From NCBI GenBank assembly GCA_030066455.1, contig JASJBQ010000285.1:1-6164 (forward strand): a DNA stretch of 6,164 bases, written 5' to 3'. Source of the DNA: Desulfobacterales bacterium. Its GTDB lineage: Bacteria > Desulfobacterota > Desulfobacteria > Desulfobacterales > UBA5852. Under the pieces are notes generated by a model, which was not told where the DNA came from, searched no databases, and saw nothing but the letters and a program-made list of their open reading frames with translations. This document shows, piece after piece, positions 2,919 to 6,164 of this stretch (its first letter is position 1; each line of letters begins with the position of its first letter). Both the position numbers and the translations under genes were made by a program.

Positions 2919-5114
2919 ATGCAAACCAGCGATTATTCAATGTGGACGACAGACTGGGAAGCCTACTGGTCCGACGCGGCCCAGCGCGCTGTCCTGTTCA
3001 CCGATATTCTTTGCCAGCGCGGCAATGTCTACCTGGAACACCTGCACCAAGGCCAGCCCCCCGTGCTGGTCTTCGACTACGAAACCATCCTGGAGGGCCG
3101 TGAACTGGAGCCCCCGGTCAATTTCGCCCTGGTGCGCATCATCGACCGGCGGCGCGAAGGAAAGGACCGGCGAAGCACAGAGAGGCCCGTGCCCGAGGGC
3201 GCGGCCGACGACCGACGGCACCAGACGTCGATTGCCACCGAGGCCCCGCAGGTGACGCGGCGGCCGATTGTCATCTTCGATCCGCGCGCCGGCCACGGAC
3301 CGGGCATTGGCGGCTCCAAGACGGATTCCCAGATTGGCATGGCCCTGGATGCCGGCCACCCGGTCTATTTCCTGATCTTCTTCACCCAACCCGCACCCGA
3401 GCAGACCCTGGCCGATGTGCGCAACGCGCAGATCAAATTCATCGAAAACGTCCGCAAGCGCCACCCCGATGCCCCGCGCCCGGCCATCATCGGCAACTGC
3501 CAGGGGGGCTGGGCCGCCGCGCTGGTAGGGGCCGAAAGACCCGACCTGGTGGGGCCGATGGTGTTCAACGGTTCACCGCTCTCCTACTGGGGGGGCGTCG
3601 AAGGCGTCAATCCCATGCGCTATCTGGGCGGACTGATCGGCGGCGTGTGGATCAATTCCTTCCTGAGCGACCTGGGCCACGGCTATTTCGACGGGGCCAA
3701 CCTGGTGGCCAATTTCGAGAACCTCAACCCGGCCAACACCCTCTGGACCAAGCTCTATCACGTCTACGCCAATGTCGACACGGAGGCCCAGCGCTTCCTG
3801 GATTTCGAGAAGTGGTGGGGGGGCTTTTTTCTGCTCACCGACCGCGAAATCCACCAGATCGTGGAAGGCCTGTTCGTGGGCAACAAGCTCGAGCGGGGCG
3901 AATTCGAACTCGAGGCCGGCCGACGGGTCGACCTCAAGAACAACGACAACCCGGTGGTGGTCTTCGCCTCGATGGGCGACAATATCACCCCGCCCCAGCA
4001 GGCCTTCAACTGGATCGTCAAAGCCTACGGTACGGTGGAGGAAATCAAGCGCCGCGGCCAGGTGATCGTTTTTATCGGCCATTCGAAGATCGGCCATCTG
4101 GGCATCTTCGTCTCCGCCAAGATCGCCCGCAAAGAGCACAGGGAAATCATCGCCAGCTTCGATATGCTCAACTACCTGCCCCCCGGACTCTACGAGATGC
4201 AGATCGAGGAGGAACCCGACGCGCCCGGCGAATATGCCGTGCGCTATGTCGAAAAGCACGTGGACGACATCCTGGCGCTGGACGACGGGCTGGAGGACGA
4301 GAGGGCCTTCCTGGCCGTGCGTCAGCTTTCCGAGGTGACCGATCTCCTCTACCGCAGCCTTGTCTCGCCCTGGGTCCGCCTGGCCGTACCCGCGGATGCG
4401 GCCGAAATCCTGCGCCAGCTCCACCCCCTGCGCGTCCAGCGCTACCTGTTCTCCGATCTGAACCCCTGGATGATCCCCGTCAAGGTCTGGGCCGAGGCCA
4501 TCCGCGGCAATGGACGCCGCCGCCCCGCCCCCGAAGACAATGTCTATCGCGTCTGGGAAAAACGCGCGGGCGACACGATCGTGGACGGGCTCAATCTCTA
4601 CCGCGATGTCCGCGACGCGACCTGCGAGCTGATGTTTCAGACGATCTACGAAAGCCCCTGGATGAAGATGCTATCGGATTTCGTGGGCGGCACGGCCCCG
4701 CACGACGATGCGGAACTCGAAACCATGCGCCGGCGCGATGCCGAACGCTGGCGACGCAGCATGACTGAGGGCGATTTCGAGGATGCCATGGTGCGGATCT
4801 TTCTGGCCATCGGCTTTGCCGATCAGGTGGTGCGGCGCAAGGGCTACCAGACCATCGGCCGGCTGTTCGCCGGCAATCCCCGGATGAAGGACCTGGCACC
4901 TGAAGACATGCAGCAGATCGTGCGCGAACAGTCCCGGATCGTGCAGACCGACCTGGACCAGGCCATCGCCACCCTGCCGCAGCTGCTGAACAGCAAGGGG
5001 GACCGCCGGGATGCCCTGGCCATGATCGCCACGGCCGAGGCCACCATCGGCCGCCCACTGGCCGCTCAGGAACAGGCCGTGCTCGAACGCATCAAAGCCA
5101 CCCTGGAAGCATGA
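2919..5114 (+). CDS. DUF3141 family protein, PHA-synthase-like alpha/beta hydrolase
   Basis: The 731-residue product belongs to the DUF3141 family, often labelled 3-hydroxyalkanoate synthetase-like; its biochemical role is not established. From the ATG at 2919: an N-terminal helical stretch (about 16-41, YWSDAAQRAVLF...GNVYLEH), a polar linker (about 74-115), and IVIFDPRAGHGPGIGG (about 117-132), the family's entry to the alpha/beta fold. The nucleophile box GNCQGGW is at 192-198, putting Cys194 where PHA synthases also have Cys. Likely triad partners are Asp354 in SMGDNITPPQQ and His393 in SKIGHLGIF. Family blocks NGSPLSYW, ENLNPANTLWTK, HPLRVQRYLFSDLNPWM and a helical C-terminus (about 608-731) follow. 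No signal peptide or membrane helix is evident, so it is probably cytoplasmic. A TTG at 2883 would add 12 residues but has no Shine-Dalgarno. The ATG at 2919 has only a weak purine run (GAAAGAAAGCGAG), so the start is uncertain; ATG 2940 is another option. No phaC, pta or ack neighbour is in view. Confidence 0.92.
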   Translation: MQTSDYSMWTTDWEAYWSDAAQRAVLFTDILCQRGNVYLEHLHQGQPPVLVFDYETILEGRELEPPVNFALVRIIDRRREGKDRRSTERPVPEGAADDRRHQTSIATEAPQVTRRPIVIFDPRAGHGPGIGGSKTDSQIGMALDAGHPVYFLIFFTQPAPEQTLADVRNAQIKFIENVRKRHPDAPRPAIIGNCQGGWAAALVGAERPDLVGPMVFNGSPLSYWGGVEGVNPMRYLGGLIGGVWINSFLSDLGHGYFDGANLVANFENLNPANTLWTKLYHVYANVDTEAQRFLDFEKWWGGFFLLTDREIHQIVEGLFVGNKLERGEFELEAGRRVDLKNNDNPVVVFASMGDNITPPQQAFNWIVKAYGTVEEIKRRGQVIVFIGHSKIGHLGIFVSAKIARKEHREIIASFDMLNYLPPGLYEMQIEEEPDAPGEYAVRYVEKHVDDILALDDGLEDERAFLAVRQLSEVTDLLYRSLVSPWVRLAVPADAAEILRQLHPLRVQRYLFSDLNPWMIPVKVWAEAIRGNGRRRPAPEDNVYRVWEKRAGDTIVDGLNLYRDVRDATCELMFQTIYESPWMKMLSDFVGGTAPHDDAELETMRRRDAERWRRSMTEGDFEDAMVRIFLAIGFADQVVRRKGYQTIGRLFAGNPRMKDLAPEDMQQIVREQSRIVQTDLDQAIATLPQLLNSKGDRRDALAMIATAEATIGRPLAAQEQAVLERIKATLEA

Positions 5115-5256
5115 ACGACCGGCCGCCGGGGCCTGCATTCGAGGCGCCGCCGCCCGTGCCGTCCCCCCACCCGCGTATGCGGCCGGATGACGACCAGTCA
5201 CACCCGGTGTGGACGGCCGCGAGGCCTTCTCTGCCGCCAATCGTTCCCCACGTCGA

Positions 5257-5454
5257 TCACTCGGAGCGGCGCCCGTAGTGATGGGCCAAATGCTCCCAGT
5301 CCTCCGCCCCCAGCTCGACCAAGCGCTCCAGGCGGCCGTCGCCCGGGGGCCGAAAGACCACCGCCTGGTCGGAATGGGTGGGCTGCGCGCCGGCGGGCAA
5401 GCCGACGGCGAGGACGACCCACCCCAGCAACGGCATGTATCGCCACGTCGCCAT
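5257..5454 (-). CDS. Possible small secreted or lipid-anchorless exported protein (hypothetical)
   Basis: This 65-residue ORF starts MATWRYMPLLGWVVLAVGLPAG and has the three parts of a Sec signal peptide: a short basic n-region (Arg5), a hydrophobic core (about residues 7-20) and an AGA-Q cleavage-like site near 22-25. The remaining mature part of about 40 residues is charged (LERLVELGAEDWEHLAHHYG). Third codon positions are nearly all G or C, as in the neighbouring genes. Against it: no Shine-Dalgarno sits at a normal distance from the ATG at 5454 (GGAGAGG is about 19 bases away), the frame extends upstream to a TTG at 5526, and GC-rich DNA gives many shadow frames. I recognise no family. 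It would be convergent with the DUF3141 gene. Confidence 0.33.
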   Translation of the reverse strand: MATWRYMPLLGWVVLAVGLPAGAQPTHSDQAVVFRPPGDGRLERLVELGAEDWEHLAHHYGRRSE

Positions 5455-5543
5455 GCACAATAGGCTAAAGCGCCCTCTCCGGGTTGTCGAGACCGCGTGC
5501 GGTCGGTTCCCGCCGCCTCGCGCCAAAGCGCATCAGCCCTTTT

Positions 5544-5556
5544 GAAAACCGTTTTC
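5544..5556. repeat. Perfect 6-bp-arm inverted repeat GAAAAC-C-GTTTTC
   Basis: The two six-base arms are exact reverse complements around one C. The short spacer suits a protein-binding dyad better than a hairpin. A similar core, AAAACGTTTT followed by C, occurs at 1037-1046 in the other large gene-free stretch. It lies about 90 bp upstream of the possible minus-strand ORF and about 120 bp upstream of the promoter at 5664. Confidence 0.3.
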
Positions 5557-5638
5557 TACACCCGAGTCTTCCGGGATACAGCCAGCCCGCACGGCAGGTC
5601 TGCCGACCTTAGTAAAGGCGATCCCGGCCCCGTCATTT

Positions 5639-5655
5639 TTTAGAGCATATTCTCA
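5639..5655 (+). promoter_or_regulatory. Operator-like repeat, upstream copy
   Basis: The core reads GAGCATATTCTCA with TTTA before it. It has partial dyad symmetry, with GAG and CTC as outer arms, ATAT at the centre, and TTT matched by AAA further out at 5656-5658. It matches the copy at 5692-5708 at 15 of 17 positions. It ends eight bases before the -35 hexamer, a position where an activator or the distal half of a looping repressor could sit. Confidence 0.55.
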
Positions 5656-5663
5656 AAATCTTC

Positions 5664-5692
5664 TTGACAGACGGATGGGCGCCACCTATGGT
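5664..5692 (+). promoter_or_regulatory. Sigma70-type promoter of the MTH1175-like/MinD-like operon
   Basis: A perfect -35 TTGACA (5664-5669) is followed after exactly 17 bases by TATGGT (5687-5692), 4 of 6 to the -10 consensus. Transcription should start near 5699, leaving a leader of about 44 bases that ends in the Shine-Dalgarno at 5732-5737. Operator-like repeats flank the hexamers on both sides. The strong -35 with a weaker -10 is compatible with a regulated promoter. Confidence 0.6.
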
Positions 5693-5708
5693 TTTGAGCA
5701 TAATCTCA
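5692..5708 (+). promoter_or_regulatory. Operator-like repeat, downstream copy over the start of transcription
   Basis: The core reads GAGCATAATCTCA with TTTT before it. TGAG and CTCA form the outer arms of a partial dyad. It begins on the last base of the -10 hexamer and covers the expected transcription start, so protein bound here should block RNA polymerase. The offset from the upstream copy is 53 bp, close to five turns of B-DNA, placing both on the same face of the helix. Confidence 0.55.
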
Positions 5709-5742
5709 TATATTGATCGTGTTCATCCCATGGAGGGAAAAG

Positions 5743-6111
5743 ATGAAGAAAGTCGCCGTCACCGCCGAGAGCCCGGAACTGGATGCCCGAATCGACCCGC
5801 GTTTCGGACGGGCGGCGGGCTTCCTTATCATCGACCCGGACACCATGGCCTTCGACTATGTGGACAATGGGCGTTCCCAGGTCATGGCACAGGGGGCCGG
5901 CATTCAGGCGGCCGAAATCGTGGCCGCCTCCGGAGCCGGTGTCCTGTTGACGGGTTTCGTGGGCCCCAAGGCTTTTCGGGCTCTGAATGCCGCCGGCATC
6001 GCCGTCGGCCCGAACATGGACGATCTGACGGTGCGCGAGGCGATCCAACGCTTCCGGTCCGGGGCGGTCGAAATCGCCGACGCCCCCAACAGTCGAGGAA
6101 ACCAGCGATGA
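5743..6111 (+). CDS. MTH1175/NifX-like family protein (dinitrogenase Fe-Mo cofactor biosynthesis domain)
   Basis: The 122-residue protein is a single-domain member of the family related to NifX/NafY and the C-terminus of NifB (PF02579), small cytoplasmic proteins thought to bind or carry metal clusters. One relative, the Orange Protein of Desulfovibrio, binds a Mo-Cu cluster. Visible marks are the opening KKVAVTAESPELDARIDPRFGRA (about 2-24), DNGRSQVMAQGAGIQAAE (about 41-58), VLLTGFVGPKAFRALNAAGI (about 67-86) and a closing amphipathic segment TVREAIQRFRSG. It contains no Cys or His, so any metal ligation is not through them; this is also common in the group. GGAGGG at 5732-5737, six bases before ATG 5743, fixes the start; a TTG at 5713 would add ten residues without a Shine-Dalgarno. 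Its stop overlaps the next ATG. Nothing here shows nitrogen fixation, and the family is widespread in non-diazotrophic anaerobes. Confidence 0.93.
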   Translation: MKKVAVTAESPELDARIDPRFGRAAGFLIIDPDTMAFDYVDNGRSQVMAQGAGIQAAEIVAASGAGVLLTGFVGPKAFRALNAAGIAVGPNMDDLTVREAIQRFRSGAVEIADAPNSRGNQR

Positions 6112-6164
6112 TCCTGACCATTGCCAGCGGCAAAGGCGGCACCGGCAAAACTACCGTTGCGGCC
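6108..6164 (+). CDS. MinD/ParA-type P-loop ATPase, N-terminal end (3' truncated by window)
   Basis: Only 19 residues are present: MILTIASGKGGTGKTTVAA. This is a beta strand followed by a deviant Walker A motif (KGGTGKTT), with the signature Lys9 and the P-loop Lys14, as in SIMIBI-class ATPases. The ATG overlaps the preceding stop by four bases (ATGA), which implies translational coupling. Next to an MTH1175-like gene, the usual neighbour is a MinD-superfamily ATPase with an inserted 4Fe-4S ferredoxin domain, or an Mrp/NBP35 Fe-S carrier. Which of these it is depends on sequence beyond the window. Confidence 0.88.
   Translation, partial: MILTIASGKGGTGKTTVAA

Follow-up and report, generated by a model that had tools for sequence, protein, structure and literature searches.

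Paired palindromes around the promoter of an orange-protein operon in a Desulfobacterales bacterium as candidate operators for the DUF134 family

The DNA considered here, a 6,164-nt stretch of contig JASJBQ010000285.1 from a Desulfobacterales bacterium (assembly GCA_030066455.1) and hereafter called the window, ends in an operon for an orange protein (ORP) and a MinD-type ATPase, the promoter of which is bracketed by two repeats that are very probably operators for a protein of the DUF134 (UPF0251) family. The first gene of the operon (5743..6111, forward strand) follows a Shine-Dalgarno-like sequence, GGAGGG (5732..5737, same strand), and encodes a 122-aa ORP homologue that belongs to PF02579 and matches the Desulfovibrio gigas ORP structure 2wfb along its length (E=2e-44, residues 1-116). 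Overlapping its stop codon, on the same strand, is the 5' part of a gene for a MinD/ParA-like ATPase (6108..6164), recognized by eye from its P-loop motif and truncated by the end of the window. Within a relative (L002), the ORP gene is followed by two consecutive MinD-type (CbiA/MinD) ATPase frames with ferredoxin motifs and then by a further PF02579 gene. Among 120 listed ORP homologues, three bear an organism name, these being two Desulfobacterales (one 99 % identical) and one Desulfobacteraceae. An earlier note on this DNA, made from the sequence alone, had proposed an operon handling iron-sulfur (Fe-S) or molybdenum clusters; its assignment to metal clusters stands, and is refined by the recognition of the first gene as an orange-protein homologue.

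Upstream of the ORP gene, the 17-mers TTTAGAGCATATTCTCA (5639-5655) and TTTTGAGCATAATCTCA (5692-5708) are identical at 15 of 17 positions and lie 53 bp apart, as the earlier note had reported. While the pair is real, its description as a direct repeat is not retained, since the unit is itself a palindrome: each repeat is an imperfect dyad, and the 14-mers at 5642-5655 and 5695-5708 are each 2 mismatches away from the palindrome consensus TGAGCATATGCTCA, both being of class A, i.e. with GAG half-sites. Operator O1 (AGAGCATATTCTCA, 5642..5655), which has T/A-rich flanks (5638-5659), is centred ~51 bp before the inferred transcription start, and operator O2 (TGAGCATAATCTCA, 5695..5708, flanks 5691-5712), which recurs in relatives with the same promoter layout, spans the expected start; neither is assigned a strand. 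Between O1 and O2, on the forward strand, lie a -35 hexamer, TTGACA (5664..5669), recognized by sequence match, and, after a 17-bp spacer, a -10 hexamer, TATGGT (5687..5692), which agrees with the consensus at 4/6 positions and is assigned from that match alone. Together, the two hexamers are the sole sigma70-like match within 5100-6164, an interval in which no intrinsic terminator was found, and the window is without a match in Rfam at gathering thresholds. That the repeat arose by chance in an A/T-rich promoter has in its favour that either copy is weak by itself; however, a 17-mer scan allowing ≤3 mismatches matched both copies as well as copy 1 read on the reverse strand, and three matches were reached in 0/200 shuffles (mean, 0.01). 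The conservation of the sites with the same promoter layout, described next, refutes a chance origin for practical purposes, leaving it a negligible probability. The signal is carried by the pairing of the sites, their position at the promoter and their conservation.

Conservation was assessed in the best 80 of 304 confirmed ORP loci, two of which have <300 bp of upstream sequence. The palindrome occurs within the 300 bp that precede the ORP gene in 16 of the 80, and a DUF134 gene lies upstream within the locus in 36, with one locus (L031) having both and 29 neither. Leaving out L031, the promoter comparison covered 16 ORP promoters, i.e. the window and 15 loci. In 14 of these, an exact TTGACA occupies the corresponding position, and eight have a convincing pair of sites (summed mismatches ≤5), the window being included in both counts; the remaining eight pairs, among them the likely mis-assigned L006, have summed mismatches >5 and were excluded as unconvincing. 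The repeat is therefore conserved upstream of orthologues, and the promoter match and the layout in relatives support the claim that the copies flank a sigma70-like promoter serving a metal-cluster operon. The convincing pairs are spaced by 51, 51, 53, 56, 56, 57, 57 and 64 bp (range inspected, 48-66 bp), and because the spacing varies in this way, the argument for looping from helical phase, which had been read from a separation near five helical turns, was rejected.

DUF134 is present in all 18 genomes examined, each of which was picked for carrying a site. Where a site precedes the ORP gene and no DUF134 gene is linked to it, DUF134 was found elsewhere in 13 of the 13 genomes searched (10 of the 18 plus three more, L010 and L019 being excluded), and it was found in 16 of 25 genomes in which site and DUF134 gene are both missing from the ORP locus. 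In the two closest relatives examined (G001 and G002), DUF134 has a gene to itself, located beyond the ORP locus that was fetched, and the protein bears CxxC pairs near its C-terminus; the window's own genome presumably also carries a DUF134 gene. More broadly, matches to DUF134 occur in 143/192 and 69/120 genomes of two classes and in 30/99 across the whole phylum. DUF134 genes also carry the palindrome themselves. Among the 23 such genes of the 18 genomes, 21 have an upstream site with ≤4 mismatches and 14 have one with ≤2. A larger set of 160 genes, compiled from the discovery loci together with genomes sampled from two classes and the phylum, was reduced to 96 non-redundant genes by dropping 64 with ≥80 % redundancy or short upstream sequence. 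Within this set, a start-proximal palindrome precedes 45 genes (shuffle mean 5.0, maximum 11) and a stricter version of it 42 (shuffle mean 0.33, maximum 2); the stricter palindrome precedes 1 of 676 other long frames and, when A/T-rich upstreams are compared, the counts are 33/69 versus 0/172. The site is situated ~30 bp before the start codon, most commonly at about -27 to -38, and many DUF134 genes are without one.

Loci with two DUF134 genes are especially informative as to what binds these sites. There are 24 such loci and, in the 18 for which both sites could be classed, the class differs between the paralogues every time (three being mixed versus pure), although two-paralogue loci are non-independent events. 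Since the classes differ, each site appears to belong to its own DUF134 protein. An alternative is that some other regulator binds the palindromes, those of ORP genes and those of DUF134 genes alike, with DUF134 being merely a target, and the fact that the case for DUF134 as the binder comes from comparison lends this some room; however, the differing classes of paired genes and the predicted helix-turn-helix of DUF134 speak against it, and it is judged improbable. The earlier note had offered DUF134 as a candidate binder by way of inference, a suggestion now strongly backed by comparative evidence such as the family's own sites and the paralogue loci. At this level, comparison of genomes shows the motif, the promoter layout and a tight association with DUF134 genes.

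The site classes also bear on a possible one-residue recognition code in the DUF134 helix SR-x-T, which is suggested by the data yet confounded by clade, and is not claimed. The pattern is Q or A with GAGC, P with GAAC and H with GCTC, and it fits 75 of 110 half-sites (null mean 31.7, maximum 56 in 20,000 permutations), a count that includes discovery genes and in which residues follow clades. A tree test had one starred independent pair per comparison, too few for significance. In a first hold-out pass, for which the rule was fixed beforehand and redundant genes were retained, genes with residue A were called 19 A, 1 B and 5 unclassed; those with Q, 8 A, 7 C and 1 unclassed; those with P, 3 B, 1 A and 7 unclassed; and those with H, 5 C, 5 A (all at 4 mismatches) and 6 unclassed. 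A hold-out set of 50 DUF134 genes <80 % identical to discovery genes, 18 of them without a recognized helix, gave class A for 9 of 12 genes with residue A (1 mixed, 2 unclassed) and for 7 of 10 with Q (3 unclassed), whereas P yielded 2 B, 1 A, 1 mixed and 1 unclassed, and none of the five H genes was classed, so that H was not put to the test. In the seven Q genes called C in the first pass, an SRQTVGR helix goes together with a TGATCAAATGATCA-like site, so that they look like a further class. A TGATCAAATGATCA-like palindrome lies near -28 of the DUF134 genes L161, L166, L167, L171, L175, L177, L180 and L229, with SRQTVGR in seven of these.

A whole-genome search for the motif, which the earlier note had advised, was run in relatives. 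Each genome has between 6 and 31 sites with ≤2 mismatches, and these exceed a reversed-pattern control (0 to 8) in 18 of 18 genomes. The sole perfect match in G002 precedes the ORP gene and the sole one in G017 a DUF134-ORP gene; G013 has none. Two points weigh against the assignment of the window's repeats to DUF134: a lone site with 2 mismatches, such as either copy, is weak evidence, and the 13 sites with ≤2 mismatches in G002 (5.9 Mb), while above the control count of 3, do not exceed the uniform-base expectation of ~19. Twenty further sites were fetched in a survey of other targets, in which no enrichment test was made and from which no regulon is claimed. A perfect site at L194:1544-1557 and one with 1 mismatch at L197:1507-1520 lie ~136 and ~204 bp, respectively, before another PF02579 gene, a possible further target; in L194, this second PF02579 gene is followed by a metallo-beta-lactamase-fold gene. 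Near-consensus sites also occur ~70 bp before a metallo-beta-lactamase-fold gene (L198:1527-1540) and, in two genomes, ~40-50 bp before a lipoprotein-like frame (L200:1454-1467 and L201:1466-1479). Additionally, a TGAACATATACTCA-type site stands in conserved DNA before an Fe-S-type gene in five genomes (L189-L193, Pfam being run on L191 only), and the L202 site has a DUF5320/NUBPL pair on one side and an Fe-S gene on the other. The sites L195, L196, L203-L206 and L208 fall within long frames, and the context of L199 and L207 is ambiguous.

Many relatives encode DUF134 and ORP domains, as assigned by Pfam, within one open frame, 20 of which were aligned. A structural model of one (L041) has helices at 36-47, 52-59 and 63-83 and comprises a sigma-region-4-like part and an ORP part, with a predicted template modelling (pTM) score of 0.48 and an unreliable linker. 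A Shine-Dalgarno-like 5-mer precedes the internal ORP start in 29 of 31 fused frames (L041:303-1091 and 30 others), and ATG or GTG is found at that start in 28; among controls, the motif precedes 412 of 6727 other codons (6 %) and 24 of 176 other ATGs. Because the motif and start codon are kept within the fused frames, these genes are predicted to yield free ORP as a second product. In the case of D. gigas ORP (2wfb), no regulator fusion turned up in the literature, among the matches listed; its binding of a Mo-Cu cluster is indicated by titles in the reference list of PMC6345978.

The nearest known system, going by the matching text of the papers concerned, is that of OrpR (PMC3897727, PMC4641369; MrpORP, PMC6345978). 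In Desulfovibrio vulgaris, OrpR (DVU2106), a sigma54 activator assisted by IHF, controls orp operons via palindromes and feeds back negatively on its own promoter, which is of the sigma70 type (PMC3897727). The likeness, i.e. orange-protein operons controlled through palindromic sites, of which one overlaps a sigma70 promoter (PMC3897727; operon targets in PMC4641369), raises the alternative that the window's palindromes are sites of an OrpR-like activator. However, the sigma54 -24/-12 element (TGGCACNNNNNTTGCA) has no match with ≤3 mismatches in 5150-5743, and the window instead has a sigma70-like promoter between two sites of a kind that tracks DUF134 paralogues, making an OrpR-like activator very improbable. 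The proposed binder would also differ from sigma70 region 4, which is part of a sigma factor and binds -35 elements, whereas DUF134 would sit on palindromic operators.

The favoured mechanism is that DUF134, the DNA-binding part of which is a sigma-region-4-like helix-turn-helix, would when bound cover +1 at O2 and, at O1, the DNA that precedes -35. Because O2 covers +1 and O1 flanks -35, the outcome is most likely repression, although this sign of control, judged from position, is put no higher than probable. Binding would be relieved once the metal-sensing part of the regulator changes state, that part being the ORP domain fused to DUF134 in many relatives; given ORP, the natural candidate for the signal is a metal cluster. 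Alternatively, DUF134 may activate, with O1, near -51, as the activator site and O2 limiting output. By arithmetic, the centre of O1 is where upstream activators can reach RNA polymerase, and the -10 is poor; the commonest DUF134 site, near the start codon of its own gene, fits autorepression, and activation is considered rather unlikely. At even confidence, control of the window's operon by DUF134 would belong to a wider scheme, in which the family consists of metal-cluster-responsive autoregulators, the helix-turn-helix is often fused to an ORP sensor, fused genes give two products (the full-length regulator and free ORP), paralogue circuits are separated by palindrome class, and the window represents the split form with a trans-acting DUF134.

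Elsewhere in the window are a DUF3141 protein (2919-5111; 731 aa from that start) and, at 3-985, the end of a succinate dehydrogenase/fumarate reductase flavoprotein along with its iron-sulfur subunit, all by Pfam. As for published work, no regulon or binding site for DUF134, UPF0251 or COG1342 appeared among the matches listed, and no exact palindrome consensus was found in the literature searched. The matching text of PMC10434189 and PMC8459023 concerned DUF1349 and DUF1343, and that of PMC5886521 named a UPF0251 gene solely as the location of an insertion. A possible external hint, conditional on a correspondence with the window operon, comes from matching text on strain OA-G20: Dde_3198 and Dde_3197, which carry the annotation of dinitrogenase cofactor proteins or resemble these, are among the genes that changed most in the control and graphene-copper exposures, as are feoA and flavodoxin (PMC10533852).

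The physiological role of the orange protein has, to our knowledge, yet to be settled; that it is found fused to a DNA-binding domain time and again suggests a role in sensing. Pfam lists DUF134 (PF02001) as being of unknown function, and the family, to which the proposed binder belongs, is here given a candidate site. If DUF134 is indeed the binder, this would be the first proposed job for a DNA-binding family that is common in the sampled groups, and with a defined operator its function becomes directly testable.
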